NCBI GenBank assembly: GCA_030447305.1
Contig: JAUJPC010000004.1
Coordinates: 153,268-217,267 of the forward strand
DNA: 64,000 nucleotides
Direction: 5' to 3'
Source: Actinomycetota bacterium
Lineage (GTDB): Bacteria; Actinomycetota; CADDZG01; JAHWKV01
Within the stretch, counting starts at the first letter, position 1. The number at the start of each line of letters is the position of its first letter. The notes beneath the pieces are model-generated. The model saw nothing but the letters and a program-made list of their open reading frames with translations. It had not been told where the DNA came from and ran no database searches. The position numbers and the translations under genes were made by a program. This document shows, in pieces, positions 36,559 through 51,745 of the stretch.

Positions 36559-36689
36559 ATCGTCTTGTCTCTCAACTTCCCGCTTCGCGCAGCTCGGCGT
36601 CAACCTAGACCGTTCAGGACGCCGATTTCAGGTCTCGACGAAACTCTGCTGCATCTGTCTATCCATGCAGAGGTGGAGATCAGCAAACA

Positions 36690-36705
36690 TGTCGGCTACT
36701 CGACA
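36690..36705. promoter_or_regulatory. Crp/Fnr-like operator copy 1
   Basis: TGTCGGCTACTCGACA, an exact TGTCG-N6-CGACA palindrome, lies 132 bases before the start of the fused protease gene. It is one of nine copies between 36.6 and 51.1 kb. Confidence 0.65.
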
Positions 36706-36883
36706 GTTCTCTTATCCGTCCCTTCTGGAGCAGGCTTGGTCGTCACGCGGCAAGGTCGCCGCAGGACCAAACGACGCTTGCTCAGTGATGGAGGGGGCGG
36801 TGCAGGCCACTGGCCGATCCGCCCTCCGCCCTCGACAGTGCGGGGCGAGAAGCTAAAAGAGCCCCTCGAAGCACTCCATGCCG

Positions 36884-37594
36884 TTATGGCCGCGCAGGTA
36901 GACCTTCCGCTAAACGCTTCAACCCGTCCTTGTCGAGGACCTCTATGCAGCGATAAGAGACTGCGATAAGACCCAATGCTTCGAACTCGCTCACGATCTG
37001 ATTAACGGACGAACGGTGAACTCCAAGCATGGCCGCAATAGTGCCCTGGGAATGACGGAAAGCGCCATCGACGCTCTCATGCAACAGAAACTGGGCAACT
37101 CGGTCCCGCAACGCCGTGGTCAATAGCTCCACAACGCGGTTGTGGTTTTTGCACACCTGGAGGGACAGCTTGGCCAGCCAACGGCGAGCCACCGAAGGAC
37201 GCGTGGCAAGTAGTACCTCGAAATCGGTCCGATCGATAAATAAGCACGTACTCGGCTCGGCCGCCCGGGCTTTGAATTGAGATGGAACTCTCCTCAAGAT
37301 CTGGATATCCCCCACAGCCCCGCCCGGATTGATCATCCTGATAAGCGCACGATGCACCCCTGTGCCGTAGATCTGTTCTATGGCTCCCGCTTGTAGGATC
37401 CACACCCCACCGGGATGCTCCCCCTCGTGGAAGAGAACCTCTCCCGACTCGACAACCTTAGGAGTCAAGAACCGAGATAGCTCCAGGAGGTCATCACTCG
37501 AGAACGGGGCTGCCTCGGCTTCGGCGAAGTTGGCCGCCACCCAAGCTGCACCCAGGGCGGCCGTATCCGGCACCCGGTCTGTTCCCCACGACAC
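36884..37594 (-). CDS. Crp/Fnr-family transcriptional regulator (paralogue 1)
   Basis: The 236-residue product has a cyclic-nucleotide-binding-type jelly roll (GEVLFHEGEHPGGVWIL near residue 55, GGAVGDIQIL near 90), a long dimer helix and a winged HTH with AAMLGVHRSSVNQIVSEFE (recognition helix RSSVNQ). The effector-pocket Arg/Ser pattern of true cAMP-binding Crp is not present, and there is no FNR cysteine cluster. More than half the residues match paralogue 2 at 40.9-41.6 kb. The recognition helix has Ser where Crp has Glu181, which fits a non-TGTGA operator. Confidence 0.92.
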   Translation of the reverse strand: MSWGTDRVPDTAALGAAWVAANFAEAEAAPFSSDDLLELSRFLTPKVVESGEVLFHEGEHPGGVWILQAGAIEQIYGTGVHRALIRMINPGGAVGDIQILRRVPSQFKARAAEPSTCLFIDRTDFEVLLATRPSVARRWLAKLSLQVCKNHNRVVELLTTALRDRVAQFLLHESVDGAFRHSQGTIAAMLGVHRSSVNQIVSEFEALGLIAVSYRCIEVLDKDGLKRLAEGLPARP

Positions 37595-37841
37595 CTGATA
37601 GTCCTTAGGCTTCAGGAAATTTTCCTCTTATCCAACAAAGCAGGCGCAGAGGAGGCTTCTCGGCTCACCGGCTTCATCCTACCCGAGTCACGCTCCACCG
37701 GGTCCGCGGATGGTCGGAGTTGCATCAACTGGTTAGCCATGAACGAACCAGGTGCTGGCTACCTGGCGGCACCTGGTTCGCGTCAAACCGACGGGATTCG
37801 AGTCGATGGCTAGACGATCAATCGAGAGTCCATTTGCACAC

Positions 37842-38132
37842 TCAAAGCTCCAAAAGAACTTCCGTAAGCTCGGCACAGCAGAAGTTGACGAATATCTGCA
37901 ACTGAGTCCTTTTCCTCCGTGCGTCCCTGCATATACCGGCCAGTAACTTGATCGCCTTTGGATGTATGAGGTCCACGTCTCTTAGGTCGATTACGACGGG
38001 AAGCGACGAAAAGTTTGTGGTATCCAGAAGCGCGCGGCCAAAGGCTTCGGCAGTCGACTCATCTAGAGCCCCAGAAACCTTGAGCAAAGAGCAGTCCGGC
38101 AACCTAGTGATTGACATCGGAACCTGCGACAT
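37842..38132 (-). CDS. STAS-domain protein without phosphorylatable serine (96 aa)
   Basis: The product fits the anti-sigma-factor antagonist (STAS) fold: LLKVSGALDESTAEAF near residue 16, then VVIDLRDVDLIHPKAIKLL near 47. In SpoIIAA-type proteins the segment after the third strand is DSSG, with the first serine phosphorylated by the anti-sigma kinase. Here it is HPKA, so regulation by phosphorylation is unlikely. AGGAGGGAC precedes the ATG by 5-6 bases. No anti-sigma kinase gene is adjacent. Confidence 0.8.
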   Translation of the reverse strand: MSQVPMSITRLPDCSLLKVSGALDESTAEAFGRALLDTTNFSSLPVVIDLRDVDLIHPKAIKLLAGICRDARRKRTQLQIFVNFCCAELTEVLLEL

Positions 38133-38386
38133 CGAAGTCCCTCCTCCGTTAGTTCACCTAGTCGATCTCCAGAGGTCCTCGCAGACCGATTCGGCGACTG
38201 CTCAATGTCCCGACATACGATCGAACCCGACAAATCGTCGTACCGCCAACATTGGTGGCTGCCATTCGTTCCCCCGCTATATGGAGGAGACAGGGAGCGG
38301 CGTCCAGGGAGAAAGCTGGGACGCCACTCCTTGCCATCGGCCGACTTGGGCACCAGCAGGGTCGACTTCATCAAGCCGGTACCCGC

Positions 38387-39061
38387 CTACCGAATGACGC
38401 TCGGGAGCTGATCATTCTCCAGCTTGGTGTGCCACTTCGCGCCTACTCGCCCCCCTATCAGGCCGCCAAGCAACATGGATGCCAGGATGGCTATCCCGGC
38501 TGCTGTGGCTACCTCGCTCGCATCACCCAATGGCGAAGGGAGGTTCTCAAAACCGGTCGGAGCCGCTTCGGGGGCAGAGCCGGCCAGTCCGACTACAACC
38601 GCCCCGAGAACCGCAACGATCACGATGGCTCCCACCGTCACGAGCAGCCCATTCATCCAGCCTGAGCCACGAGCCATCCGACCGGAGGTGTATCCGCCCC
38701 AGAAGTACGCAAGGAACTGAACAACCACCAGCGCAATCACCGCGCCGATTCCTGCCGTCCTTAGCTCGTCCGGCCTCAGACCGCCGTCGGTAAGGCCGGA
38801 CGCGGCAAGGATGGCGCCGACGAAAGCATTGAGCAGCACAAAGGCCCCGAATGCGACCAATATGCCGCTCAAGACAGACCAAGCCGACAGTCCCCCACGC
38901 GCTCGTACAGCCTCAGCGAGCGACGTCCGTTCCTCATTGCCGATCGGTCGCGCCGCCACTGTTGTGGATTTCCTGATCCGCCATACTTCGGGATCGTTAT
39001 CTCCCCCACCCCTTCGCGCACTCGAGCCCCTCTTATCTTTCTCCACCTCATCCACCTCCAT
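38387..39061 (-). CDS. Four-span membrane protein, TIGR04086/YrzE-like
   Basis: The 224-residue product has a charged cytoplasmic N-terminus of about 60 residues, then hydrophobic segments at about 60-85, 102-122, 135-158 and 188-205, with glycine-rich helices (GGYTSGRMARGSGWMNGLL, MLLGGLIGGRVGAKWH). Glycine-zipper helices of this sort occur in TIGR04086-like proteins of unknown function. It is in the stress region, with palindrome copy 2 lying 150 bases upstream. Confidence 0.68.
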   Translation of the reverse strand: MEVDEVEKDKRGSSARRGGGDNDPEVWRIRKSTTVAARPIGNEERTSLAEAVRARGGLSAWSVLSGILVAFGAFVLLNAFVGAILAASGLTDGGLRPDELRTAGIGAVIALVVVQFLAYFWGGYTSGRMARGSGWMNGLLVTVGAIVIVAVLGAVVVGLAGSAPEAAPTGFENLPSPLGDASEVATAAGIAILASMLLGGLIGGRVGAKWHTKLENDQLPSVIR

Positions 39062-39212
39062 TCGAATCGGCCGAAAGCGGTTCCTCCGTTCTCGGACTCA
39101 CGGTGTGCTTGCTTTGCCGTCTTCGCCTCGGTTCCTCAGCCGCACGGCAAGGTCTGCACGCGGTACTACGTCTAAAGGTTTTGGCCTAAGGCGCGACGTT
39201 TGCTCAGCGCAT

Positions 39213-39228
39213 TGTCGGCGACCCGACA
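39213..39228. promoter_or_regulatory. Crp/Fnr-like operator copy 2
   Basis: TGTCGGCGACCCGACA. The symmetry extends to ATTGTCGG-N4-CCGACAAT (39211-39230). It lies in the 435-base gap between the divergent membrane protein gene (38387-39061) and the GlsB-like gene (39497), so it could serve either. No gene is seen in the rest of that gap. Confidence 0.68.
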
Positions 39229-39496
39229 ATGGTCAATGCGTCGGAGGCTGGAGTAAGGCCAAACGGCCCGGCCGCCAGGGCCGCATGCTGCCCCGAAGCG
39301 TCCTCGATCAAACGCGATCGAGTGGCTTCCTCAAGTGTTTTCTTCCCGGTTCCAGAAGTGTTGCCCTAACGACAGGTTGGGATGCGCTGTGTTCGGATCG
39401 GGAAATGGATCATTGGGGACCCTGAAGAAAGGAGCCGGTCGTGCATGGAACCGCCAAGGAACTACGGGGCGGGCATCTGAGTGAAAGGAGATAAGA

Positions 39497-39763
39497 ATGG
39501 AGTGGATTTGGTTCATCTTGACCCTGCTTCTTTCAGGGCTGATCGTTGGAGGACTGGGACGTCTGGTGGTACCGGGACGGGAGACACTTGGTATTTTCGG
39601 GACGGCTCTGGCCGGAGTGGGTGGATCATTCCTTGGGGGATTTATCGGACGGCTACTCTTCGGGCCCCTTGAGTGGTGGGCCGCGCTCCTGTTTGCAATC
39701 GCTGGCGCCGCCCTGCTGGTGGCCCCGTTCAGCGTGCGGGGTAGAAGGACCATCACCTATTGA
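39497..39763 (+). CDS. GlsB/YeaQ/YmgE-family small membrane protein
   Basis: The 88-residue product has three hydrophobic segments with the family's GLIVGGLGRLVVPGRE near residue 14 and GFIGRLLFGP near 48. The family was named after a transglycosylase-associated protein and is commonly stress-induced; its biochemical role is unknown. A GAAAGGAG site precedes the ATG. Its stop overlaps the next start (TTGA). Confidence 0.88.
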   Translation: MEWIWFILTLLLSGLIVGGLGRLVVPGRETLGIFGTALAGVGGSFLGGFIGRLLFGPLEWWAALLFAIAGAALLVAPFSVRGRRTITY

Positions 39764-40011
39764 GCAAGGAGCGAAGTTCAGCAAGCCTCAACCTAACGAC
39801 CGGAGGAATCACCCTGCTCGGAGTTCTGGTCAGCGTTGGGTTCACCGTGGGCTTCGGCATCAAGGGCGAGTGGTGGTTCCGGCTTCTGGCGGGAGCCGGA
39901 ACCACTATCGCGTTGGTGGTGATTGTCAAAGTGGGCACCAAGTCCGGTACGGGATCGGTGGCTCGTCTGGCGAACTGGGTGATCGGCTCGGAGGACGAAG
40001 GTAAGCGCTAG
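39760..40011 (+). CDS. Small two-span membrane protein (83 aa)
   Basis: It starts at a TTG overlapping the GlsB-like stop, so the two are translated together. It has two membrane segments (residues about 14-32 and 40-58) and a charged C-terminus ending SEDEGKR. No family recognised. Its coupling suggests a joint role with the GlsB-like protein in the membrane. Confidence 0.68.
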   Translation: MSKERSSASLNLTTGGITLLGVLVSVGFTVGFGIKGEWWFRLLAGAGTTIALVVIVKVGTKSGTGSVARLANWVIGSEDEGKR

Positions 40012-40193
40012 TGGTCCTTCCTCCGTCTCCGGAAAGGTGGAGGCAGGTATCCACTGCCAATGAGCCACAGCGTAAAGCGGTTAGTCGACCGGTCCGTTCT
40101 CGTCACGGTGAACCAGTGCCAGCCAGGTGGCCGGATGTCGGGTTTCGCTGCGGCCGAGCCGTCAAGACTTCCGACGCATGTAACGATCTTTGG

Positions 40194-40568
40194 TCACTGC
40201 GCTTCTAGTCGTCCGGTCATCTGTACAGGGTGGACATCGCAGCGGAAGAAGTAGCTGCCCGGCTCCTCCGGTGTTTCGAACCGATAATCCTTGGACCTGT
40301 CGGGACCAGTGAAGATCTCTCCAACGAAAATCTTGTCTGTCGCAGCCTCTGAGCGATATAGGGATAAGTTGTGCGGATCAGCGTCCTGGTTGACCAGCGT
40401 CAGCTTCACCGGATCCCCGGCCGGCACGAGGATCGTTTCAACCTTGCCGGCAGATCGCCTGCTAGGACCAGGTGTGCTAAATGGCCAGGGGCCTTTCGCC
40501 GCAACTGAGGGAAAGACCCCAGATCCGACGACCAGCGGCGACAGTGTCTGCGCTCTCGACTTGTCCAT
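40194..40568 (-). CDS. Cupredoxin-like copper-binding protein
   Basis: About 124 residues from the ATG at 40568; the frame is open upstream to 40721 but that part looks non-coding. The type-1 copper ligands are all present: histidine in DADPHNLSLY, then cysteine, histidine and methionine in YFFRCDVHPVQMTG near the C-terminus. Such proteins carry electrons or store copper outside the cytoplasm. A clear signal peptide is lacking with this start, which leaves location uncertain. Confidence 0.8.
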   Translation of the reverse strand: MDKSRAQTLSPLVVGSGVFPSVAAKGPWPFSTPGPSRRSAGKVETILVPAGDPVKLTLVNQDADPHNLSLYRSEAATDKIFVGEIFTGPDRSKDYRFETPEEPGSYFFRCDVHPVQMTGRLEAQ

Positions 40569-40721
40569 GGTCTCGCCTTCGTTTCGGTAGCAAAGGTTGG
40601 CTTTTGCCACCCCTAGTTGTGTCCGTGCTCCGGCCATAGATTCGCTGAACCACCGGTCGGCGCTAAGGTCGTAAGCCTGCGTGGATGTCCCTAACCCAAT
40701 AGCGGAAGGGTCGTCGCGCAT

Positions 40722-40737
40722 TGTCGGCGCGCAGACA
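40722..40737. promoter_or_regulatory. Crp/Fnr-like operator copy 3 (one mismatch)
   Basis: TGTCGGCGCGCAGACA differs from the palindrome at one base of the right half. It lies 154 bases before the cupredoxin start. Confidence 0.5.
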
Positions 40738-40863
40738 AAGTTCCAGGTGAATAGCAGCTAGAACTGTCTTGTAGGACTAAAGGTGCTCAACGGATGTCGG
40801 GCCGACTGACAGACCAAGTCGTTAAGATGGAAGATCGCAACGGGTCGACTTAGGTGGAGTGGT

Positions 40864-41625
40864 TCATTGTGCGAGCTGCCCGCCCACGATGTCGCTACCC
40901 AAGCTCTGTGCCGTTGAAGAGTACTTAAGAAGAGTCGTAGACGGTGACTTAGCGGGGTAGCACCCTTCCGCCATCCTCGTGAGCCCTGCTTCATCTTGTA
41001 TCTCGATACACCTGTAGCTCAGTCCTACCAGACCAAGTTCCTCAAACTCGCCAAGAATCTGATTAATTGAAGACCGGTGAACGCCCAGCATGGAGCCAAT
41101 CGTTAGCTGAGAATGGCGGAAAGCCCCCTCCACGGACTCGTGCAATAGAAAACGGGCAACCCGCTCCCGCAAGCCGTTGGTTAACAGGTCGACTATTCGA
41201 TTGTGATTCAGGCTTACCTGCAGAGCAAGCTTTGCGAACCAGCGGCGCGCGATCGACGGACAGGTCAGCAGCAGCGAATCAAACTTTGACCGTTCGATGA
41301 ACAAGCAGGCACTCGGTTCGGCTGCTCGGGCCTTGAAAGCCGACTTAATACCTCTCAGGATCTGGATATCACCCACTGCTTCGCCAGGGCGAATAATCCT
41401 TACAAGAGCGCGGCAAGACCCAGTTCCGTAGATCAGTTCAATGGCTCCGCACTGGAGTATCCAAACCCCGGGGGGATATTCACCCTCGTTGAACAAGACT
41501 TCCCCCCATTCCAGAACCTTCGGCTCTAAATGAAGAGAGAGCTCGCTGAGATCGGCCCGGGAAAAGGGGGCAGCGTCAGCTTCCCCAAAGTTGGCGGCTA
41601 CCCAAGCCGCATCCATGCTGCTCAC
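40864..41625 (-). CDS. Crp/Fnr-family transcriptional regulator (paralogue 2)
   Basis: The 253-residue product matches paralogue 1 along almost its whole length: AAWVAANF start, GEVLFNEGEYPPGVWIL sensor loop, FLLHESVEGAFRHSQ and a recognition helix HRSSINQIL differing by only conservative changes. It has an extra C-terminal tail of about 20 residues after EGCYPAKSP. The near-identical HTH implies both bind the same operator. A perfect copy of the 16-base palindrome lies 246 bases upstream, so autoregulation is possible. Confidence 0.92.
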   Translation of the reverse strand: MSSMDAAWVAANFGEADAAPFSRADLSELSLHLEPKVLEWGEVLFNEGEYPPGVWILQCGAIELIYGTGSCRALVRIIRPGEAVGDIQILRGIKSAFKARAAEPSACLFIERSKFDSLLLTCPSIARRWFAKLALQVSLNHNRIVDLLTNGLRERVARFLLHESVEGAFRHSQLTIGSMLGVHRSSINQILGEFEELGLVGLSYRCIEIQDEAGLTRMAEGCYPAKSPSTTLLKYSSTAQSLGSDIVGGQLAQ

Positions 41626-41870
41626 GGTAGTCGAGTTCGGACCGGCGGATTACCCGAATGCGGATGTTGCACGAAAGGATCGGTGACCAGCTCCTCCTGT
41701 ACTCGAAAGCTCCTCCGGAGGTAATGCGAAGCGCTCCTCATTGGTTCTCCCTGTGCCACGGATGATTGGTATAACCATCCCCCTGTAGTCAGAGGCCCTA
41801 ATGACGGATGGTTGCTTCGGCGGAAGGCCGACTGAATTGTGATCCAGCATCGGCTCATCGAATAGCGAAT

Positions 41871-41886
41871 TGTCGGTTGGACGACA
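41871..41886. promoter_or_regulatory. Crp/Fnr-like operator copy 4
   Basis: TGTCGGTTGGACGACA, an exact match, lies between the minus-strand Crp paralogue 2 (start 41625) and the plus-strand PRC-barrel gene (start 42157). It could control both. Confidence 0.65.
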
Positions 41887-41940
41887 GTTATTTATTGCCA
41901 GGGTGCAAAGCTGTCGAGTTCTATATGCACTAGAGCGCTC

Positions 41941-42011
41941 GGCGTAGCTCAGTTTGACCGTACCCGACGGTATCGATAGAGCGCGACGTTCACTGCTTCG
42001 TCACCGGTGCG
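41941..42011 (+). other. tRNA-like relic
   Basis: The segment opens GGCGTAGCTCAGTTTGA, as a tRNA 5' half does, and later has TAGAGCGC...TTCAC...GTCACCGGT, which resembles the D-stem end, the CAC anticodon loop and the T-arm start of a valine tRNA. About 19 extra bases sit in the D-loop and the anticodon stem does not pair. It cannot fold as a working tRNA. Chance resemblance is not excluded. Confidence 0.25.
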
Positions 42012-42156
42012 GTCGTCCCCCGACTGCCAATGCGATTGGTCGCTGGCAAAGACGAGTCCCAACTTGCAAAAAAGAGTGTTGTCCGCGAGACAGCTCGGCC
42101 CGCGTTGAGCGCAAAACGGATATGCCGCTGCAAGCAGACGAGAGAGAAAGGAGTAA

Positions 42157-42896
42157 ATGATGCTTCGCAGTGGAAATGACTTGATCGGGCACGAGCTTGA
42201 GGCGATCGACGGCGATATCGGCAAGGTAGAGGACGTTTACTTTGACGACTCCGAGTGGACCGTCCGGTATCTGGTCGTCAACACCGGCAGTTGGCTGGCG
42301 GGCCGGCGGGTGTTGATTTCGCCCATCGCACTGGGTTCGGCGCCGGCAAATACCAGGGGGATCCACGTGGCTCTCACCACGGAGCAGATCAAAAACAGCC
42401 CCGACATTGACACCGATCAGCCGGTCTCCAAGCAAACGGAGATCGATTACTACACCTATTACGGCTGGCCATACTGGGGCTTGGGAAGCGGGCTTTGGGG
42501 CATCGGTCCATATCCGGTAGCCGACTCCCCAGATGCTGAGATGTCTCCCGACGAGCAAGGTAAGGATTATCACCTTCGAAGCCTCGAAGAGGTGACGGGC
42601 TATCACATTGAGGCCACCGACCACGAGCTCGGGCACGTCGAGGACTTCATCGTAGCGACGCCAGCTGGCAGATCCGATACATGGTGGTCGACACCAAAGC
42701 ACTATGGCTCGGCAAGAAGGCCCTTGTCTCACCCCAGTCAATCAAGCGTGTCGACTGGAGCCAGCGCGCCGTCGCGGTTGCCCTGTCCCGCAATGAGATC
42801 GAACACGCTCCCGAGTGGGATGGGAAAGTCCCGTTAGACCCGGACTACGACACGAACCTACGGACCCACTATCGCCACTCGACGTACCTGGTCTGA
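42157..42896 (+). pseudogene. Two-repeat PRC-barrel protein, one-base frameshift
   Basis: The first frame encodes a PRC-barrel domain (LIGHELEAIDGDIGKVEDVYFDD start given, near residue 8), a WPYWGLGSGLWG linker and the start of a second barrel (VTGYHIEATDHELGHVEDFIV). The second barrel then continues one frame off as DASWQIRYMVVDTKALWLG and on to a stop at 42896. One base is missing near 42650-42658. PRC-barrel proteins of this kind are common soluble stress proteins. With the base restored it would be about 246 residues. Confidence 0.8.
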
Positions 42897-42975
42897 GCGC
42901 CAGATTGGACGGAAGACCTGGTCGAGGCTTTTCCATATCCTGCGTCTCCTCCTATTCACCTGGGATGCTTAGCCA

Positions 42976-44271
42976 ATGAGCGCTTCAGGCCAGGTTTCGG
43001 CGAGCCGTCACCTCAGGCAGGGTCGGGGAAAAGCGCGCCGTCTTGCGTCCAATCTGTTGTCGGGATACTGGTTCATTCCTGCGACCACTGTGCTGGTCGC
43101 CGCCGCCCTGGGCCTGTGGCTGCTAGAGGTGGACGAAAGGCTCCGGGCTGAGGGCAGCGCCCCGGGCTTCACCGGAGGTCCGGAGAGCGCCCGGGAATTA
43201 CTGTCCACGATCGCCCAGTCAACGCTGACGCTGACGGCTCTGGTCTTCTCCGTCACGATCGTCGTCCTGCAACTGGTGAGCAGCCAGTTCTCTCCACGGG
43301 TGTTACGTACATTTCTGCGTGATCCCCGCACTCAGCTAACACTCGGGGTCTTCCTGGCCACCTTTGTCTACGCACTGCTGGTTCTGAGAGAAGTTCGAAG
43401 TGGAAACGGGGCCGAACCTCGGCAGGTGCCGGGAATCTCGGTTGCTGTGTCCTTCGGGTTCGTCATCGCCTCGGTGGGCTTCTTCGTCGAATACATCCAT
43501 AACATCGCTAACTCCATTCGAGTTATCGAGATCATCAACCGAATTAGCGACGGGACCATCGAAGCGGTCAACCGGGTTCACCCGGAACATGAATCACATC
43601 ACAACGAAGCTTCACCCGCCAAGGAAACTGTGAGCCGCACCATCCCGGCCGCGACCAGCGGTGTGGTCGTCTCGGTAAACCTGGAACGCCTGTCCCGGAC
43701 GGCCCAAAAAGCCGATTCGGTTCTGCAGGTTCTGCTCTCTCCGGGAGAGTTTGTGGCGGAGGGCATGCCCATTGTCGCGATTCACGGCACGGGGGAGGTC
43801 GACGACCGGCGCGTGCGAGGGGCGGTGGTTCTCCATAAAGAACGGGATCTTGACGAGGACCCGGCGTTCGGCTTCCGCCAGCTAATCGACATCGCGGAAC
43901 GAGCCTTGTCACCGGCGGTCAACGATCCGACCACGGCGACCCAATGCCTCGATCACTTGCATCGCCTTCTGCGATACATGGTCACCCGTCCCTTGTTGGC
44001 GCGCATAGGTTACGGCACGGACGGAGCGGTACGGGCCGTCGCCCCACAGCTGGGATGGGACGACTACGTGCGATTGGCTCTTGACGAGATCCGCCAGTGG
44101 GGATCCGACTCAATTCAGGTCCATCAACGCATTGGCACACTTCTGGGCGATCTTATGAGCGTTGCTCCACCCGAACGAACTCCGGTGCTGAAAGAGCAAC
44201 AGCGCTTTCATGAAAGCGCAGTGGCCGATTCCGACCCCAGTGGCGCTCTGAAAAACCGTCGCACCATTTGA
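42976..44271 (+). CDS. DUF2254 membrane protein
   Basis: The 431-residue product has four membrane segments in the first 185 residues (ATTVLVAAALGLWLLEV near 35, LVFSVTIVVLQLVSSQFSPR near 92) and a cytoplasmic C-terminal domain with FGFRQLIDIAERALSPAVNDPTT near 295 (given in part), the hallmark of DUF2254. Function is unknown. It lies 79 bases after the PRC-barrel gene on the same strand and converges on the STAS gene. Confidence 0.9.
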   Translation: MSASGQVSASRHLRQGRGKARRLASNLLSGYWFIPATTVLVAAALGLWLLEVDERLRAEGSAPGFTGGPESARELLSTIAQSTLTLTALVFSVTIVVLQLVSSQFSPRVLRTFLRDPRTQLTLGVFLATFVYALLVLREVRSGNGAEPRQVPGISVAVSFGFVIASVGFFVEYIHNIANSIRVIEIINRISDGTIEAVNRVHPEHESHHNEASPAKETVSRTIPAATSGVVVSVNLERLSRTAQKADSVLQVLLSPGEFVAEGMPIVAIHGTGEVDDRRVRGAVVLHKERDLDEDPAFGFRQLIDIAERALSPAVNDPTTATQCLDHLHRLLRYMVTRPLLARIGYGTDGAVRAVAPQLGWDDYVRLALDEIRQWGSDSIQVHQRIGTLLGDLMSVAPPERTPVLKEQQRFHESAVADSDPSGALKNRRTI

Positions 44272-44277
44272 GCCGTA

Positions 44278-44676
44278 TTATTCAGTGGCGACTGGCTTGG
44301 TAGATTGCCAATGTTGGATCACGGCCTCCATATCGGTGATGTCGAAGACCCTCCGCACCATGCCCCGTGTATTTTCAACGCGAAGCTTCCAGGCGCCCCT
44401 GCCGGCACGCCGAGCAGCTCTTGCCAGGACCTTCAAACCGCCGGCGTCGAGAAACGCAGTTTGCGCCAGGTCGATAATTACTTCGGCGGGACCCGACATT
44501 TCCTCCCGGTGAATACTTCGTTCAAGGACATGCGCGGAAGCGAAATCCACCTCTCCGCCCACCAGCAGACGGACCGTGGAGCCACTCCTGAGTGGAGTAA
44601 CCACCACCTGGTCCGGAGCCGTCAATTCGGGCGGTGACAATGATTCGATCTTGACCTCAACTTCGCGTGTCGGCAT
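44278..44676 (-). CDS. STAS-domain protein with Ser-to-Ala change (132 aa)
   Basis: Residues 28-130 form a STAS domain: VRLLVGGEVDFASAHVLER near 35 and VIIDLAQTAFLDAGGLKVLARA near 66 (in part). The phospho-acceptor position of SpoIIAA-type proteins (DSSG) reads DAGG here, so it cannot be phosphorylated there. It may act as a constitutively active antagonist or in another STAS role. It is the second such protein in the region. The adjacent DUF2254 gene converges on it, 6 bases away. Confidence 0.85.
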   Translation of the reverse strand: MPTREVEVKIESLSPPELTAPDQVVVTPLRSGSTVRLLVGGEVDFASAHVLERSIHREEMSGPAEVIIDLAQTAFLDAGGLKVLARAARRAGRGAWKLRVENTRGMVRRVFDITDMEAVIQHWQSTKPVATE

Positions 44677-44889
44677 CCGGTGCTCCTCTCAGCCGTGGCG
44701 ATACGACTGTATGCCTCTTTTCGCCTCTTGCATCCTCAACTGTTGCTCGGCCGACAGAGCTACTTGGTGAACCCATGACAGCGCGCGCGGCCTAAGCCCC
44801 GTAGATAACCGCGATTTCTCGTCCGACACCATCTCGGCCCTTCGCCTCCTCACCAACAGCGTTTATGTGTAATAGAAGCCATGGAGGTG

Positions 44890-44905
44890 TGTCTGCAAGA
44901 CGACA
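44890..44905. promoter_or_regulatory. Crp/Fnr-like operator copy 5 (one mismatch)
   Basis: TGTCTGCAAGACGACA has a perfect right half and one change in the left half. It lies 120 bases before a small membrane-protein gene at 45026 and 214 bases before the divergent STAS gene. Confidence 0.5.
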
Positions 44906-45025
44906 ATGTCTTCCGGGTCGAGGTTGACCAGGGTAGTTGCCTAATCGTTGGTGCGTTGAACGTCAACTCTGATGTCGTAACGGCCTTGTGCGGGTGGCCC
45001 ACATCAGTAAATGCGAGGAGTAAGC

Positions 45026-45184
45026 ATGATCTGCAGAAGGGACTTTCCGTGGGAGCACAAGCTGTACCTCAGGAGAGGCTTAGCCCAGGAAGACGGCGTC
45101 GTTGGATGGCTAGTGATTCTCATCATCCTAGGAGTCATCTTCGTCATCTGGCTCGTTGTTCAGCTCTTGCAAGCCATTTTTTGA
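45026..45184 (+). CDS. Tiny single-span membrane protein (52 aa)
   Basis: The ATG is preceded by GCGAGGAG with 5 bases spacing. The product begins MICRRDFPWEHKLYLRRG, a basic cytoplasmic head, then one membrane helix (VVGWLVILIILGVIFVIWLV, residues 25-44) and ends QLLQAIF. The positive-inside head, clean helix and good ribosome site favour a real gene. No family recognised. Palindrome copy 5 lies upstream. Confidence 0.6.
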   Translation: MICRRDFPWEHKLYLRRGLAQEDGVVGWLVILIILGVIFVIWLVVQLLQAIF

Positions 45185-45379
45185 CGACTTCATGCATGGC
45201 AGCTAACCCGTCCGACTCCCCCACGACCATCTTGAAATCCCCTTGCCGACTCCGTCATCCGGACAATCCAATCTGCAAGGTCCCCCGCTGGCCGGGGAGT
45301 ACTTTGCTCACCTCGAGCAAGTCATCCGACAGCCACCGCTGCTCCGACTCTAAAGCGCCGATTCGGTACGAGACCATGA

Positions 45380-45500
45380 ATGGTCCCGTGGATCATTTAT
45401 CTAGGAACAGCTCTAAGGGTCGTTCCTGGCAACGGCGGTGGCCACGGCACTGCTCGTCGCCCCGATCGCTTCCACCGGCTCCGCTGGCACAAGCCGATAA
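45380..45500 (+). other. Possible small membrane ORF broken by a frameshift
   Basis: MVPWIIYLGTAL is followed, one frame off, by FLATAVATALLVAPIAST and a stop at 45500. Joined, these would be a one-helix protein of about 40 residues. No ribosome site is clear. The rest of 45185-45750 shows nothing convincing. Confidence 0.25.
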
Positions 45501-45752
45501 GGCCAAGATGCTGGAGTAAACAAGAGGATGCCGCTGACCGGGCTGGCTGCTTGGCACTGTCCCTCTCGCCCGCTCTCGGTGTCCTCCTTATCTTCCCTTG
45601 GTTCGCCCGACCGCTCGGCGGAAGCTGGAGGACGAGAGTTGATGTGACCCGTTCCCTACGGGCGTTCAAATCAAATGCCGATTTCAACTTTCCTAGGTAG
45701 CGGGCCTTGAAACTGAAAGCCGAATGCATGTCTGCCCTTATCTCTAAGAAAA

Positions 45753-45768
45753 TGTCGTCTCTGCGACA
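45753..45768. promoter_or_regulatory. Crp/Fnr-like operator copy 6
   Basis: TGTCGTCTCTGCGACA, an exact match, lies 73 bases before the lipoprotein start at 45841. A -10-like GATAAC at 45795-45800 is 37 bases from the palindrome centre, near the position expected for activation. Confidence 0.68.
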
Positions 45769-45840
45769 AACGGCCCCTGACTGCTGCCTTCTTGGATAAC
45801 GAAGTAGACACCACGCTTAACACAACCCATGGAGGCTTTG

Positions 45841-46347
45841 ATGAAAGGTGCTCGGGTCCACCGCTCATTGAGTGATAGTCAAATGATCAGGCCGTCGAGC
45901 ACGTCTGGAGGGGGACGACTGCGCGCACCGAAGAGGCTGATCTTTCCGACTGTTTGCTGTCTACTGCTGGCTGCGTGCGCCGGCCCGACCGTCGACGACT
46001 CGACGACGGAAGAAGCGATACCTCCATGGATTGTGAGTGTCGAACCTCGCCCCGGGCAGGATAGCGCCCCCCTTAGCCGGGTGGAGGTAAAACATCGCGT
46101 GCAATCAGGCGGTGAATCGGTGCGCTTGGAGATCGACGGAACCGACGTCACGGCCTACTCCGACTTCGGCCGCGCCGACAACACCGGGGGCCCCGGGCGG
46201 CTGGTCTATGATCCTGAGACACCTCGAGTCCTCGTCCCGCTGGACCCGGGCGAGCACGAAGCCACTCTGAAGCGGGTCCAACTCATCGACGCGGGAGAGC
46301 GACACAGGGTGCTCGATACCTTTACCTGGTCCTTCACCATTCAGTGA
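45841..46347 (+). CDS. Small lipoprotein
   Basis: From the ATG at 45841 (GGAGG six bases before) the product has 168 residues. After a long basic N-region (about 33 residues), the lipoprotein signal reads FPTVCCLLLAAC with the lipid-bearing cysteine just before AGPTVDD. The mature part looks like one immunoglobulin-like beta sandwich (VEPRPGQDSAPLSRVEV, VRLEIDGTDVT, LDPGEHEATLKRV). It should be outside the membrane. Function is unknown. Its end overlaps the convergent channel-like gene by 7 bases. Confidence 0.75.
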   Translation: MKGARVHRSLSDSQMIRPSSTSGGGRLRAPKRLIFPTVCCLLLAACAGPTVDDSTTEEAIPPWIVSVEPRPGQDSAPLSRVEVKHRVQSGGESVRLEIDGTDVTAYSDFGRADNTGGPGRLVYDPETPRVLVPLDPGEHEATLKRVQLIDAGERHRVLDTFTWSFTIQ

Positions 46348-47039
46348 ACATTATTTCCCGGGTCTTCGGCCGCCTTGGATGACTTCCGTTCCATGTCGCC
46401 TTCAACGAAAAATGCCCCTAGAGTTGCGGCCAGAGCGGCGAAAACAATGACCGAGTACAGCCCCAATGCGACATTTATCAGCAGCACCACTGGAGAACGG
46501 CTGCCAACTGGTTCTCCGACGATGGTGGCGATTGCGACGTCGTACAAAGCTCTACCGTAATCTGGAAAGTCTCCAAACTCGAACGCAATCTGGCTGACCG
46601 CCAAGATGACAATCAGCGTCACCGCCGCCAACCATCCCAGCCGGCTGGAGAGGTTGGCGCGTGCTCCCCGGCCTGAGCGAACGCTGGAGGAGACAACCCG
46701 TCCAAGCCGTCCAATCTTAAGACGGGCAAGAACGCGAGCGAACCGAAGGAACGGTAACAGCAAAAACAGGAGCTGCCACCAGTTGCGCTTGAGGAACGCG
46801 GTGGTCGAGGGAGCGACCGTTGCCCTTACGACAAATTCGGCCGCGAAAGCCAACCACAGTATCCAGCTCGCGGCGGTGAATGCTAGACCCAGGGCTCCCC
46901 TGGGCTGGATCAACGTCTCTGCGAGGACGAGGAGCAGAAAGATCAGGCCGAGTGCAGTCATCGGCCCGTCCATGTGTTCAGCGATCCGCTGAGCTAGTGC
47001 CTCACGGTCGGTTGCCGGCTTATCGCGCAGGTTCAGCAT
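46341..47039 (-). CDS. Ion-channel-like membrane protein without a K+ filter
   Basis: The ATG at 47039 follows AGAGGAGG, giving about 232 residues. It has a voltage-gated-channel-like layout: several membrane helices, an arginine-rich stretch (LLPFLRFARVLARLKIGRLGR start given) and a last helix pair. Where potassium channels have TVGYGD the sequence reads ATIVGEPVGS. Such actinobacterial relatives are known but unstudied. It probably conducts another ion or none. It shares a divergent promoter region with the AI-2E-family gene, with palindrome copy 7 between. Confidence 0.75.
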   Translation of the reverse strand: MLNLRDKPATDREALAQRIAEHMDGPMTALGLIFLLLVLAETLIQPRGALGLAFTAASWILWLAFAAEFVVRATVAPSTTAFLKRNWWQLLFLLLPFLRFARVLARLKIGRLGRVVSSSVRSGRGARANLSSRLGWLAAVTLIVILAVSQIAFEFGDFPDYGRALYDVAIATIVGEPVGSRSPVVLLINVALGLYSVIVFAALAATLGAFFVEGDMERKSSKAAEDPGNNVH

Positions 47040-47095
47040 TCGACCTCCTCTAACCAGTCCGGCCCTTCTTGCAAACTGATCAGCTTTCTCGGGAC

Positions 47096-47111
47096 TGTCG
47101 TCTGGACGACA
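47096..47111. promoter_or_regulatory. Crp/Fnr-like operator copy 7, divergent promoter
   Basis: TGTCGTCTGGACGACA, an exact match (symmetry extends to TGTCGTC-N2-GACGACA), lies 57 bases before the channel-like gene on the minus strand and 42 bases before the AI-2E-family gene on the plus strand. Confidence 0.7.
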
Positions 47112-47152
47112 TTCGGGCATCCCTAGAGTGATCGCCCGGGAAGAGCAGGGCC

Positions 47153-48394
47153 ATGTCGCCTCGAGAGTTCACCGCCTTGGCGCCTCGAGACGGTCCAACG
47201 GAGCGCCACCAAACTAAATCCATCAAAGAAGCCGCGGCTCAGTATGACGGTGAGCCGCGTGCACGCCGCGGTGGTCAACATCCCGTTCCGGCTTGGCTCG
47301 ACGCGGCTGCCCAGTACACCTGGCGCTGGCTGCTCATCTCTGTGGCCGTACTGTGCGCTCTGTGGCTAGTAGGTAGGTTGCGACTGGTCCTCATACCGTG
47401 CCTGGCGGCGCTCTTGATCTCGACTTTGCTCGTTCCTCCCTTTCGATTTCTAAGATCCAAAGGGCTCCCCCGCCTGCCGTCCGCGCTTGTAGTCTTCTTT
47501 CTGCCTTCGTTGCTGATGTTCTTGCTCATCAAGACGGCGGGCCCAGGGCTGATAGACCAGTTCAATCAACTCGGCCCGGCGCTGGGGAAAGCGATCGATG
47601 CGGCACAGAGCTGGGTTTCCGAGCGACTTCCCGATCTACAGGGTGAGTCTGCGAGATTGGGAGGTCGCCTACGGGAGCAGCTCACTAAGAATGCGTCCCA
47701 GATAACGGCCAGCCTGATTGCCGGCGCTTCCATGGCGGTTGAGGTGGTCGCCGGAATCCTGCTCACCCTCACACTGCTGTTCTTCTTCGTCAAGGACGGT
47801 GACACCCTGGCCAGAGCGATCGTACGTCCCCTTCCGCCCGAGTTGGGCGCACAGGCACGAACCGTAGGCGCGATCATCTGGTCCACCCTTACTGCCTACG
47901 TTCGAGGAGTCGCAGTCATAGGAGCGGTCAACGGCCTGGCGGTCGGCATAGCTCTGATGATCCTGGACGTTCCCCTTGCCGGTCCCCTGATGGTCCTTAC
48001 CTTCCTTGGGGCGTTCTTCCCTCTGGTCGGCGCCGTTCTTGCCGGCGTGGTCGCCGTGCTGATCGCGCTGGTGTCGGAGGGTGCAACCGATGCTCTTATC
48101 GTTGCCGGCGTCGTGCTGGTGGTGCAGCAACTGGAGGGTGACCTGGTCGCTCCTTTGGTCTTTTCCAAAGCGGTCAACCTGGACCCGGTGGCTGTGTTGG
48201 TAGCTCTCACGACGGGGGCTATTCTCGCCGGTGTAGTGGGCGCAGTGCTGGCGGTCCCCGTCGCAGCCTCGATAATGTCAAGCTTCGTCGCGTTGAGGAG
48301 GCAGGCTACCGAATCCAAAGCAACAACATTGGAACGACGAAAAGACCAGAATGCCGTTCGGGAGGGGAGTGGCCTGCCCGAGGCGAGCGCATAG
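47153..48394 (+). CDS. AI-2E family transporter-like membrane protein
   Basis: The 413-residue product has about eight membrane segments and the family's late motifs (VIGAVNGLAVGIALMILDVPLA near residue 265 in part, GAFFPLVGAVLAG near 290, and QQLEGDLVAPLVFSKAVNLDP near 327 in part). Members include TqsA/YdiK and sodium-proton antiporters, so the name does not prove autoinducer export. It ends 3 bases before mscS, so the two form an operon, possibly for osmotic or ion stress. Confidence 0.9.
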   Translation: MSPREFTALAPRDGPTERHQTKSIKEAAAQYDGEPRARRGGQHPVPAWLDAAAQYTWRWLLISVAVLCALWLVGRLRLVLIPCLAALLISTLLVPPFRFLRSKGLPRLPSALVVFFLPSLLMFLLIKTAGPGLIDQFNQLGPALGKAIDAAQSWVSERLPDLQGESARLGGRLREQLTKNASQITASLIAGASMAVEVVAGILLTLTLLFFFVKDGDTLARAIVRPLPPELGAQARTVGAIIWSTLTAYVRGVAVIGAVNGLAVGIALMILDVPLAGPLMVLTFLGAFFPLVGAVLAGVVAVLIALVSEGATDALIVAGVVLVVQQLEGDLVAPLVFSKAVNLDPVAVLVALTTGAILAGVVGAVLAVPVAASIMSSFVALRRQATESKATTLERRKDQNAVREGSGLPEASA

Positions 48395-48397
48395 CGC

Positions 48398-49300
48398 ATG
48401 CGCCGTTTCGTGGATTTATTGATAGACAACCAAACCGTTACGGGGCGCCTGGTAACGAGCGGCGTAATCGTGATCATTGCGATTCTCGTGGCGGCCGGCA
48501 TGCAGCGAGTTGTCTCTAGAAGACTTGACGATGCGCATAGTCGCTACTACTCGCGCAAAGCCGCACGCTTCACCGTTGCCATCAGCACGTTGCTTGCGCT
48601 TGCCATTCTTTGGAGGCCGTTCGCCGGTCGGGTGGCGGTGATACTCGGCTTTGCAGCCGCCGGGTTGACCTTTGCGATGCAGGAACTCATCGGCGCGTTG
48701 GCCGGGTGGTTCAACATCATCTCCGGACGAATATTCCGCGTCGGGGACCGCATACAAATGGGAGGTGTACGGGGAGACGTGATAGACGTCACTCCCCTTA
48801 GGACCAAGATCATAGAGATGGGCTCCGGTGAGCCGGACCAAAGCTGGGTCAAGGGCCGCCAGTACACCGGGAGGATCGTGACCGTATCCAATAAGGCGAC
48901 CTTCACTGAGCCGGTGTTCAACTACAGCGCGATGTTCGAGTTCATCTGGGAGGAGCTCACCCTTCCGATTCCGCACTGGAGTGACTGGGGCGTCGCCGAG
49001 GGGATCCTCCTTGAGGAGGCGCAAAAGACATCGCAGGCTGAAGGCGCCGAATCCATGATGAATCAGATGAGCCGCAAGTATCCGGTCCCTCGGGCGGAGG
49101 TCGAGCCCCGAGTATTTGTCAGAGCGACCGACAACTGGATGGAACTATCAGCTCGTTTCGTGATCCCGGTGCGCACGGCTCGAACGGTGAAGGACGAGAT
49201 GACTCGGAAGGTCATTCAAAGGCTGCGCGACGCAGGGATCGAGGTGGCTTCACAGACACAACATCTGACTGTGGAGATGGACGCACGGCGAGATCCCTAG
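48398..49300 (+). CDS. Small-conductance mechanosensitive channel (MscS family)
   Basis: The 300-residue product has two to three N-terminal membrane helices, the pore-lining TM3 (VILGFAAAGLTFAMQELIGALAGWFNI, near residue 78, in part) and the beta domain GRIFRVGDRIQMGGVRGDVIDVTPLRTKI (start given). MscS channels open under membrane tension to release solutes. The C-terminal domain is present but short. It follows the AI-2E-family gene by 3 bases and so shares palindrome copy 7 as likely control. Confidence 0.92.
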   Translation: MRRFVDLLIDNQTVTGRLVTSGVIVIIAILVAAGMQRVVSRRLDDAHSRYYSRKAARFTVAISTLLALAILWRPFAGRVAVILGFAAAGLTFAMQELIGALAGWFNIISGRIFRVGDRIQMGGVRGDVIDVTPLRTKIIEMGSGEPDQSWVKGRQYTGRIVTVSNKATFTEPVFNYSAMFEFIWEELTLPIPHWSDWGVAEGILLEEAQKTSQAEGAESMMNQMSRKYPVPRAEVEPRVFVRATDNWMELSARFVIPVRTARTVKDEMTRKVIQRLRDAGIEVASQTQHLTVEMDARRDP

Positions 49301-49439
49301 TCGATTCCGTCTCAACCACAGGGGCAACAAGCAAATGTGACTTCGCTCAACAAGCGGGAGAAAGAAAGGATAAGGCGGCGCGGGAGCACGCCGCCAAATC
49401 CCTTCAGTCCCTCATTGACTACTTCTTATCTGGGTGCTC

Positions 49440-50045
49440 TCACCTGGCATTGCCGAAGACACGACTTCCATCGGTCCACTCGGACCTCGTCACCTTGCCG
49501 TCGTTGTCACTGTCATAGAGCTCGAAGTACGCGGTCTTGAACGTCTCCCTATCCAGGGTCTCGGCACTCCATGATTCGCCTAGAAGCGAGGTGTCAAATG
49601 ACTCCGATACCTCGTCGGCATCGAGCTCCGAGTCTCCATCGTTGTCCCAATCACCAAAGACGCCAAAGTCGGCGTTGGTCGGATACCAAAGCTCCGTGGA
49701 GTCCTCCCATTCCTTCTCAGAAACCTTCCCGTTGTCGTCCATGTCCCAACTCTTGAAGGCGTTTCCGGCTATTTCGTCTTTGTCGAGTTCGGAGTCCCGG
49801 TCGATGTCTCAAGCAGTAAAGACGCCGGCATCGTCCTGCCACTCTGCAACCTCGTCGGCGTCCAGATAGGAATCACCGTTGGCATCCATGTTCGCAAAAT
49901 CGTCGTCCCCGGAGGTTTCGGCAGCCTCCGGCTGACCGGCACCAGCAGCGCTGTCGTCATCATCGTTCTCGTCCTCTCCGCACGCCGACAGAACCGTGGC
50001 CATCACCAGCGCTCCGACCAACATGACGGCGCGCGCCCGGCGCAT
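49440..50045 (-). pseudogene. EF-hand lipoprotein interrupted by an in-frame TGA
   Basis: One frame codes a lipoprotein (VMATVLSACGED lipobox) with five EF-hand-like loops: DANGDSYLDADE, DIDRDSELDKDE, DMDDNGKVSEKE, DNDGDSELDADE and DSDNDGKVTRSE. A TGA at 49809-49811 splits it after GVFTA, just before DIDRDS. The second half repeats this pattern as GVFGDWDNDG, so the stop most likely replaced a TGG tryptophan codon by one base. No frameshift is involved. Whole length would be 201 residues. Either a nonsense mutation, readthrough or base-call error. Confidence 0.8.
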
Positions 50046-50147
50046 CCGTCGATCGCTGGAGAGCGCGCGGAGCGGCCAAGAGTTCCAGCAGTTTCGTCGT
50101 TTTTTACGTGCGGTTCATACCCCGGTGGCGCTGTGGTAACTGTGAAC

Positions 50148-50163
50148 AGTCGGGCAACCGACA
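50148..50163. promoter_or_regulatory. Crp/Fnr-like operator copy 8 (one mismatch)
   Basis: AGTCGGGCAACCGACA differs only at the first base. It lies 103 bases before the EF-hand lipoprotein start on the minus strand. The surrounding 325-base gap (50046-50369) has no gene. Confidence 0.55.
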
Positions 50164-50369
50164 CTCAAAGATGGCGGTACGAGACACACCCTCCGTTGGC
50201 GGCCGCCGCTTTGAAGGCAGACCCGGGGAGCCGCTTTCGTAGCGGCGGACGCAGATTCACCAGCGGGGATGGACTAAAGACTCGTACTGGACTTTGTAAC
50301 AGAAAGAGTCGGTGCGAGCGATCCGGTGCAGGGCAATGCCAGCCGCCCGCTGGGGCGATCGGAAAGGTG

Positions 50370-50946
50370 TTACTCAGTCTTCTGAAACAGAATCCAATCG
50401 CCGTCTGAAGTGATAACGGTGCGGTACTTGGCCCACTCCGGGGGCACGTTGGGCCCCGGCCAGGCGTAGTAAGTGTCGTCGGAGCCGGTCCCGGGTCCTT
50501 CCGGCTCCGTCACAGGCTGTACTGCTGGATCGGTAAGGCGATCTCGACGAGGTTTGCCAAGATTCTGTCGCCGGCTCGCTCGCGCGCCTTCCAGTATTTT
50601 GCCGGTTGAGCGCCGGGCCCGGCTGACTCCTCGGTATGGCTGTATTGAAAAGATCCATCCGAGCCCAGAGCAATATGCTCGAGCAAGGCGTAGTCACAAT
50701 CCAGGGCTGCATCGATAATGCTGTTGCGGGTTCTAGCGACCTGCTCTGGAACCTTGGCGGCTGGCGGTACCTCCACCGAAATCCTGGAGGCTGAGCAGTC
50801 TTCGACCGCGTTGCTGACCTTTTCCTCTGGAGTCAATCCATCGTTTTGGCTATCTGCCGCCACTTCATCGGAGGGCGCCTGACGCAGGCCCCCGTCAGGA
50901 GAAATGGCAGCGAGCAAAGCCGGATGGATTTACGGAAATGAGTCAT
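50370..50946 (-). pseudogene. Lipoprotein gene with two frameshifts
   Basis: The ATG at 50946 opens MTHFRKSIRL and a lipobox FLLTGAC. Just after, in a GGGGG run near 50895, the frame must change to read RQAPSDEVAADSQNDGL, VEVPPAAKVPEQVARTRNS and KYWKARERAGDRIL. Near 50530 it must change again to read DPAVQPVTEPEG, DDTYYAWPGPNVPPEWAKY and GDWILFQKTE before a stop at 50370. Composition is consistent across the pieces. I do not recognise the family; it would be an exported lipoprotein of about 190 residues. Confidence 0.65.
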
Positions 50947-51016
50947 AAGCCTCCCACCGTTCGAAATCGAGTTCTATCTCCTCGGATTCCCAATAGGTAT
51001 GGAACCGCCGGAACTT

Positions 51017-51032
51017 AGTCGATCAGACGACA
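51017..51032. promoter_or_regulatory. Crp/Fnr-like operator copy 9 (one mismatch)
   Basis: AGTCGATCAGACGACA differs only at the first base. It lies 71 bases before the broken lipoprotein gene (start 50946), a distance like that of copy 6 to its gene. Confidence 0.55.
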
Positions 51033-51208
51033 ATCACAAGAGCATGTTGTCGGAAAGTGAACTCGCACAACCAGTGGGTTCCAAAAACTCAGCGAGGCTG
51101 GCCCGATTCGATCATGTCGCCAGGTCCTCCCTCGACTCGAAAGAACTTTTGCCGGTTCGTAAGCAACCTTCGACGGCGTTGGGCAAGTCCGAGAGCCTCA
51201 CAAACTGG

Positions 51209-51745
51209 TCACTCAACCAAATTCCCGTCGTAGGCCAAAAGCCCTTGCTCGTCGACCCGGGCGATCTCCGTGAAGCGGTGCGGACGCGGGTCGCCCATCC
51301 CGAGGTGTATGACCTGCCACCCCTCCGCCACGAGGGCATCGGCGATGAGACGGCGGTGACACCTCCACCAGAGCGTTTCGGCACACATGATGGCCGCGTG
51401 GCGATCCCTGGAGATGTCCATCAAGAGCCGAAGTGCCTGACGGAATTCGGGACTGTCCATGTGCGACGCATAGGCACGGAAGGCTTCGTTCTCCCAAGCG
51501 CCGTGGCGCACGACCGACGCCTCGTCCGCTTTCCGGCGCCCTCCCATGCTTGGCCCCCACCACTCATAACCGATGCCATGCAGCCGGAGCATCGCGGCAA
51601 GCGTCTCTTTTGCGAAATGAGGATGGCGCCTGGACCCAGGGTACCGGCGGACGTCCACGAGCAACTGGACACCCGCCTCGGACAGGACTGCCAGGAACTC
51701 CTCGCGGGAGCGAGCCCCGTGGCCCAGGGTTGAAATCGTATGCAT
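51209..51745 (-). CDS. DUF488 family protein
   Basis: From the ATG at 51745 the product has 178 residues. ISTLGHGARSREEF near the start, LLVDVRRYPGSRRHPHF near residue 28 and CAETLWWRCHRRLIAD near 120 are diagnostic of DUF488, a family of unknown function often next to DNA-repair or stress genes. The open frame continues upstream to 51904 without a clear ribosome site, so a longer start cannot be ruled out. Confidence 0.85.
   Translation of the reverse strand: MHTISTLGHGARSREEFLAVLSEAGVQLLVDVRRYPGSRRHPHFAKETLAAMLRLHGIGYEWWGPSMGGRRKADEASVVRHGAWENEAFRAYASHMDSPEFRQALRLLMDISRDRHAAIMCAETLWWRCHRRLIADALVAEGWQVIHLGMGDPRPHRFTEIARVDEQGLLAYDGNLVE

Follow-up and report, generated by a model that had tools for sequence, protein, structure and literature searches.

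A cluster of TGTCG-N6-CGACA palindromes as predicted operators of two Cmr-like Crp/Fnr regulators in an actinobacterial genome

What reads a short palindrome that recurs in the intergenic DNA around two genes for Crp/Fnr-type regulators? We analyzed a window of 64,000 nucleotides (64 kb), the whole stretch of contig JAUJPC010000004.1 taken from the genome of an Actinomycetota bacterium, in which positions 36690-51032 contain repeated copies of TGTCG-N6-CGACA. The same segment carries crp1 (36884..37594, minus strand) and crp2 (40864..41625, minus strand), which encode the regulators Crp1 and Crp2. From sequence comparisons, we think it likely that eleven intergenic palindromes are bound by dimers of these proteins, which are most similar to the Mycobacterium tuberculosis regulator Cmr, and that the two proteins control the neighboring genes.

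Five exact copies (starting at 36690, 39213, 41871, 45753, and 47096) were present in the window, compared to a mean of 0.09 and a maximum of 1 in 100 dinucleotide shuffles. Six further copies carried one mismatch (39359, 40722, 44741, 44890, 50148, and 51017), giving 11 sites when up to one mismatch is allowed, versus a mean of 2.40 and a maximum of 7 in 100 shuffles; the remainder of the window beyond 36690-51032 contained none. The initial annotation had listed nine copies, five exact and four with one mismatch, and had described them as intergenic and absent from the rest of the window. All nine lay where it had placed them, and we added those at 39359 and 44741. None of the 11 fell in a gene predicted by a codon-usage script, whose uncurated calls occupy 77% of the window. 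Some sites overlap long open reading frames (ORFs) that the script dropped or trimmed; for example, 47096 lies in ORF 46341-47120, 44890 in ORF 44881-45519, 50148 in ORF 50133-50408, and 51017 in ORF 50999-51733.

Across the 2.88-Mb genome, the exact pattern occurred six times, with five occurrences in the window cluster, while a reversed-pattern control occurred zero times. In 2,000,000 random placements of six sites, five never fell within the 10,422 bp that the exact copies span. Since the genome contained 87 sites with at most one mismatch and 81 matches to the reversed control, the excess is local only. We therefore rejected a genome-wide regulon, and the enrichment envisaged in the initial annotation holds for the local cluster (five of six exact sites) and not for the genome. 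Some 74 one-mismatch sites lie outside the cluster and its satellite, described below; among the nine with locus sequence, five are inside genes and four are not. Five further sites in the genome match TGTCR-N6-YGACA, two of them intergenic and three within genes.

The sixth exact site, at position 511611 of contig C2, and a one-mismatch site 451 bp beyond it are both intergenic. Between and after these two sites are genes for a DUF3096 small membrane protein and a lipoprotein-like ORF. At C2:512981-513127 (in the region G000:C2:511611-513127, positions 11612-13127 of locus L056) is a fragment whose product matches the C-terminal end region of an MscS-like protein encoded in the window, with 94% identity across 49 residues. 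This satellite appears to be a part of the window regulon that has become separated. On sequence grounds, the cluster is thus a predicted local regulon with one satellite locus, not a genome-wide one.

TGTCG ranked first of the 1,024 possible half-site 5-mers in positions 31001-53000 of the window. We detected no longer repeat around the copies: mean pairwise identities in the 60-bp flanks were 25.5% and 26.2%, versus 25.6% for random 60-mers. The aligned sites extend to A-N-TGTCG-N6-CGACA-N-T, with the A in 8 of 11 and the T in 7 of 11. We found no description of TGTCG-N6-CGACA as an operator in the open-licence papers covered by our searches; PMC7739888 gives TGTCG-N6-TCACC as a Crp site, which is asymmetric and differs from the window palindrome. 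One alternative is that the palindromes are hairpins or repeats, such as terminators or REP-like (repetitive extragenic palindromic) elements, and not protein sites. Terminator-like matches do overlap three of them (41868-41889, 36690-36705, and 45768-45753). However, the other eight are absent from the terminator-like list, the flanks and spacers are dissimilar, and the same layout accompanies Cmr-type genes elsewhere, and we give this explanation almost no chance. Rfam and tRNA scans of the window returned no match, and a promoter scan of the cluster found one sigma-70-like site versus 4.1 expected.

The Crp operator is TGTGA-N6-TCACA, with two recognition helices placed on its half-sites. 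The initial annotation had noted that the window palindrome has this Crp/Fnr-type layout, and had proposed a regulon with the two paralogues inside it as likely readers; our results support these proposals and revise the class of the regulators. Crp1 and Crp2, which are about 70% identical, both scored above the cut-offs for cNMP_binding (PF00027) and HTH_Crp_2 (PF13545), placing them in the Crp/Fnr superfamily. In an AlphaFold model with a predicted local distance difference test (pLDDT) score of 91.8, the cNMP_binding element precedes a Crp-type helix-turn-helix. Strict membership in the CRP or Fnr families failed, as Crp1 scored 18.1 bits with the CRP model (cut-off 266) and 16.7 bits with the Fnr model (cut-off 228). 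When a profile of four close Crps was compared to known structures, M. tuberculosis Cmr (5w5a/5w5b) matched with an E-value of about 4e-53, and the next match was at 4e-11. Foldseek also ranked Cmr structures 1-3 by E-value for the AlphaFold model, with TM-scores (0.70-0.73) that were not above those of other Crp structures. The earlier label of Crp/Fnr paralogues therefore stands for the superfamily and not for Crp or Fnr proper; the proteins belong beside Cmr.

A database search yielded 89 homologues. A close group, mostly metagenomic, was 53-82% identical, and a Cmr-type group of about 35-45% identity ranked after this window clade. We built a tree of 60 rows, comprising 50 of the 89 homologues and 10 locus-translated proteins. 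The window clade (34 of the 60 rows, including both window proteins) formed one side of a branch at 100/100, and the Cmr-type group was recovered at 97/92. By this tree, the window proteins fall beside, not inside, the Cmr-type clade, and we class them as Cmr-like, not as Cmr.

Crp2 grouped with the homologue P0021 (100/100), apart from Crp1, and on the tree the two are old paralogues. This is one point in favor of a variant in which one paralogue only, or a heterodimer, uses the sites and the other paralogue has drifted in function. Another is that the same-genus genomes G001 and G002 each carry a single copy at E <= 0.001. Against this, the recognition helices of Crp1 and Crp2 are the same except for a V -> I change, and we regard the variant as rather unlikely. 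The assignment of Crp1 and Crp2 as the predicted readers of the sites is well supported.

A different kind of reader could be encoded next to the cluster. A response regulator gene (31243-31956; Response_reg and GerE domains) and a HisKA_3 kinase gene (31896-33110) adjoin it, with the kinase gene 3.6 kb from the first site. Response regulators of the LuxR class also use palindromes, and one explanation is that a DosR-like regulator of this type reads the sites and the Crp proteins are bystanders. However, the 16-bp 5-6-5 layout with TGT ends is of the Crp/Cmr type, and no site precedes the kinase gene. Moreover, tblastn searches with the kinase found no match in the fetched Crp-bearing contigs of G001, G002, or same-class genomes, and an annotated plasmid locus considered below has neither a response regulator nor a kinase. 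We consider this explanation very unlikely.

M. tuberculosis Cmr (Rv1675c) is tied to dosR-dosS. It has in common with the window regulators the domain build, the best profile and fold match, a 5-6-5 operator with TGTC/GACA ends, and a site in a divergent promoter. As described in PMC5499769, an electrophoretic mobility shift assay shows binding of Cmr to TGTCAGCGTGCTGACA, a site in the cmr promoter region, and a four-base change in the site abolishes binding. According to the same text, binding and the effects on transcription are cyclic AMP (cAMP)-independent, Cmr represses one cmr promoter while activating another and the divergent rv1676, and oxidation/nitrosation of Cys36 and Cys131 weakens Cmr (PMC5499769). 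The Cys131 position is kept in 28 of 32 window-clade proteins, but the Cys36 position is Cys in 0 of 31, versus 52 of 52 on the Cmr side. Thus, a Cys36-Cys131 disulfide switch cannot form in the window clade in that way and is not to be assumed. Cmr also differs in its targets, which are not the genes predicted here, and in its operator, TGTCA-N6-TGACA, as the window half-site TGTCG has G for A at the fifth base.

We examined related genomes for the regulator and its predicted sites. G001 and G002 each contain one orthologue of the window Crp (73-74% identity), while in G003, of the same genus, neither this Crp nor the PRC-barrel protein was found. G001 has a sole exact site, about 0.8 kb away from crp and in front of the STAS gene that precedes crp, at a place matching a weak window site (38236); in G002, one of two exact sites is about 2.2 kb from its crp. 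TGTCG was also first of 1,024 5-mers in the 7.7-kb contig with the G001 orthologue. With a matrix trained on the window sites, we found sites at p <= 0.033 before 8 of the 12 promoters tested in G001 and G002. For this matrix, shuffles moved two-base blocks, a rough null, with 300 per promoter (so that p has a floor of 0.003), most window promoters are training data, and start codons were partly picked by eye. The G001 promoters with sites were those of crp, the two PRC copies, and the two STAS genes (a STAS gene and a PRC copy have one site in common); their G002 counterparts were those of PRC and two STAS genes. All three PRC copies are thus included, with sites about 64-66 bp upstream in both genomes, like window site 42077. 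No matrix site preceded G001 GlsB or the G002 crp, TetR, and STASa genes.

A parallel arrangement is found on the Mycolicibacterium vanbaalenii plasmid NZ_CP126902.1 (183 kb), where a Cmr-type gene at 141688 encodes the helix RPSLNK. The plasmid contains seven TGTCR-N6-YGACA sites (control, 0), all within 130733-144779 around this cmr-like gene. In the 12.6-kb stretch that we fetched (L135, NZ_CP126902.1:135745-148383), TGTCA ranked first of 1,024 words, and all six exact sites lie outside annotated genes, with the nearest start codon 12-245 bp away. Of five one-mismatch sites in this stretch, two are intergenic and three are inside genes. The six exact sites include ones in the promoters of the cmr-like gene itself, a peroxiredoxin-like gene, and a glutaredoxin gene. 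Like the window, the plasmid has a regulator gene closely surrounded by operators of its own kind, which precede several gene starts; it differs in its TGTCA word and its redox and transport neighbors (glutaredoxin, peroxiredoxin-like, NrtS, and MFS).

The two operator words accompany two recognition helices. The helix is HRSS[VI]NQ in 27 of 31 window-clade proteins and RPS-x-NK in 47 of 52 Cmr-type proteins, and it ends in Q in 27 of 31 versus K in 48 of 52. When only TGTC/GACA was fixed, the fifth base of the 14 window half-sites was G in 12, T in 2, and A in none, and at the plasmid locus it was A in 11, G in 2, and T in 1. In G010, a genome of the same class whose regulator has the helix RPSLNK, TGTCATCTCGCTGACA is found where the cmr-like gene starts. 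PMC11253593 states that Arg180 of E. coli CRP (R180-E-T-V-G-R185) reads G2 and that Glu181 and Arg185 read G4:C4. The window proteins share with CRP and Fnr the superfamily, the HTH_Crp_2 domain, the 5-6-5 spacing, and the Arg at the CRP-180 place, but they score far below the CRP and Fnr cut-offs, have Ser and Gln at the Glu181 and Arg185 places, and are paired with another half-site. Compared to E. coli CRP, therefore, Arg180 and G2 are retained in the window clade, and residues 181 and 185 and bases 4 and 5 differ.

From this paired difference in helix and fifth base, seen at few loci, we hypothesize a natural change of operator word, in which HRSS[VI]NQ in place of RPS-x-NK would have shifted the preference at the fifth half-site position from A to G. 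More tentatively, and with somewhat less than even confidence, we propose that Cmr-family regulators sit in operator-packed, self-contained islands and that Pro->Ser at CRP-181 and Lys->Gln at CRP-185 switched TGTCA-N6-TGACA to TGTCG-N6-CGACA across the clade.

Several results weigh against these proposals. In the window, the matrix scan found no site before crp1 or the DUF2254, MscS, DUF488, kinase, and 33675 genes (6 of 20 promoters). Exact sites were not above the control genome-wide in G001 (1 versus 1) or G002 (2 versus 2), and TGTCG was outside the top five 5-mers in a 20-kb G002 stretch. No convincing site preceded the AI-2E or protease homologues of G001-G005 at ten testable loci, which were scanned in one orientation and then redone by stop counts (the printed strand was used for L156, L160, and L166, and hardly any upstream sequence is present for L164 and L166). 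Conservation of sites before orthologous genes, which the initial annotation had proposed as a comparison, was thus found for PRC and STAS genes in two same-genus genomes and not for AI-2E and protease homologues. In the same-class genome G014, an exact site 9 kb from a crp pair is inside a predicted gene. Across the phylum, an exact TGTCR-N6-YGACA lay at most 400 bp upstream at only 2 of 30 Cmr-like loci (30 of 38 search matches), and one of these two, L131, combines a helix ending in NE and not NQ with an exact TGTCG site at a distance of 204 bp. Finally, G010 has four exact TGTCG-N6-CGACA sites elsewhere, two intergenic and two in called genes.

These 30 loci do not support a phylum-wide rule of such sites in the promoters of the Cmr-like genes themselves. 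Palindrome scans around 20 further Cmr-like genes gave no clear operator word, and no site cluster was found in the same-class genomes G014, G015, G018, and G023, in which the Crp helices are of other types. A different palindrome cluster, built on GTCGAC cores, is present on G018 contig C120 (L089, 5424-19498), at a distance from the cmr-like gene of that genome.

The additional TGTCG sites in G010 are also consistent with a Cmr-like regulon in which the G/A difference at the fifth base reflects base composition and not the helix. The window is 61% guanine plus cytosine, and the comparison consists of one window cluster, one plasmid cluster, and single promoters. The plasmid stretch, however, comes from a GC-rich genus and ranks TGTCA, not TGTCG, first of 1,024, and the helix types separate cleanly by their Q and K ends. 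A compositional origin of the difference is possible, if on the doubtful side.

Returning to the proposed regulon of Crp1 and Crp2, we mapped each predicted operator relative to its candidate target. The leftmost exact site (36690..36705) is 5' of a gene (34342..36603, minus strand) for a protease with Peptidase_M50, CBS, PDZ, and Lon_C domains. Upstream of crp1, a STAS-domain gene (37842..38132, minus strand) is preceded at 104 bp by a weak predicted operator with two mismatches (38236..38251; matrix score 13.5, p 0.003), which was not in the training set. An exact site at 39213..39228 lies between a gene for a DUF3792-like membrane protein (38387..39061, minus strand) and one for a GlsB-like small membrane protein with a Transgly_assoc match (39497..39763, plus strand, followed by 39760-40011); the one-mismatch site at 39359..39374, an addition to the initial annotation, is 123 bp before the latter. 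Another one-mismatch site (40722..40737) is 5' of a cupredoxin-like gene (40194..40721, minus strand). An exact site (41871..41886) lies between crp2 and a PRC-barrel gene (42157..42837, plus strand), and a weak site with two mismatches (42077..42092) is 65 bp before the PRC gene.

Further right, the other added one-mismatch site (44741..44756) is 65 bp before a second STAS-domain gene (44278..44676, minus strand), and a one-mismatch site at 44890..44905 is 121 bp before a small membrane-protein ORF (45026-45184). The exact site at 45753..45768 precedes by 61 bp a lipoprotein-like ORF without a family match (45829..46347, plus strand). The last exact site (47096..47111) is in the divergent promoter between a predicted membrane-protein gene (46341..47039, minus strand) and an AI-2E family transporter gene (47153..48394, plus strand). 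An MscS-like channel gene (48398..49300, plus strand) begins 4 bp downstream of the AI-2E gene, has no site of its own, and is probably on the same transcript. One-mismatch sites at 50148..50163 and 51017..51032 lie, respectively, 103 bp before ORF 49809-50045 of an EF-hand lipoprotein gene (49440..50045, minus strand) and 5' of a leftward lipoprotein-like gene (ORF 50510-50917).

As sequence matches, these predicted targets read as cell-envelope and stress genes and fit envelope or osmotic stress loosely. Firm functional labels are not warranted for all of them: the GlsB, cupredoxin, and DUF3792 matches are under cut-offs, and the gene at 46341-47039, initially labeled a channel, had no Pfam, NCBIfam, or PDB sequence match and is here a predicted membrane protein.

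A number of the clustered genes seem to be disrupted, unless the assembly contains errors. An in-frame stop splits the single frame of the EF-hand lipoprotein gene 49440-50045 into two ORFs (49809-50045 and 49440-49742). A second PRC domain (42648-42881) is in a different frame from the first, and the G001 relative is open across both (region 42157-42881). At 50510-50950, the frame of a lipoprotein-like start, which includes a lipobox-like stretch, differs from that of the downstream ORF 50510-50917. A perfect-looking inverted repeat at 37741-37780, between the STAS gene and crp1, is possibly a terminator or attenuator.

How might the system work? In a dimer, one recognition helix would sit on each TGTCG half-site, in the manner of Crp and Cmr on their operators. 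With roughly 40-270 bp between site and start codon, the proteins could activate the neighboring promoters, repress them, or do both. The regulators may also control their own synthesis, through the site at 41871 for crp2 and, for crp1, through the weak site at 38236 in front of the upstream STAS gene. The regulon would be mostly local, with the regulator genes amid their own operators and one satellite on contig C2. Candidate signals, by analogy, are envelope, osmotic, or redox/nitric oxide (NO) stress. M. tuberculosis Rv2625c is presumably an M50-CBS protease. Rv2625c is listed as a DosR-regulated gene in PMC4082495, and the published signal of the nearest characterized relative, Cmr, is oxidation/nitrosation (PMC5499769). 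A redox or NO theme common to the window regulon and Cmr is therefore possible.

For Cmr, which is known mainly from work on tuberculosis, these results add a sister clade of proteins from environmental actinobacteria for which an operator and targets can be predicted. As the regulator gene lies amid its own operators, the putative binding word can be read from one contig, and since many Crp/Fnr proteins are uncharacterized, the specificity of others might be readable from such clusters. The paired difference in helix and operator provides a small test case for the evolution of Crp-type specificity. If the proposed switch is true, it would be a clade-wide change of specificity that is legible from both the protein side and the DNA side.

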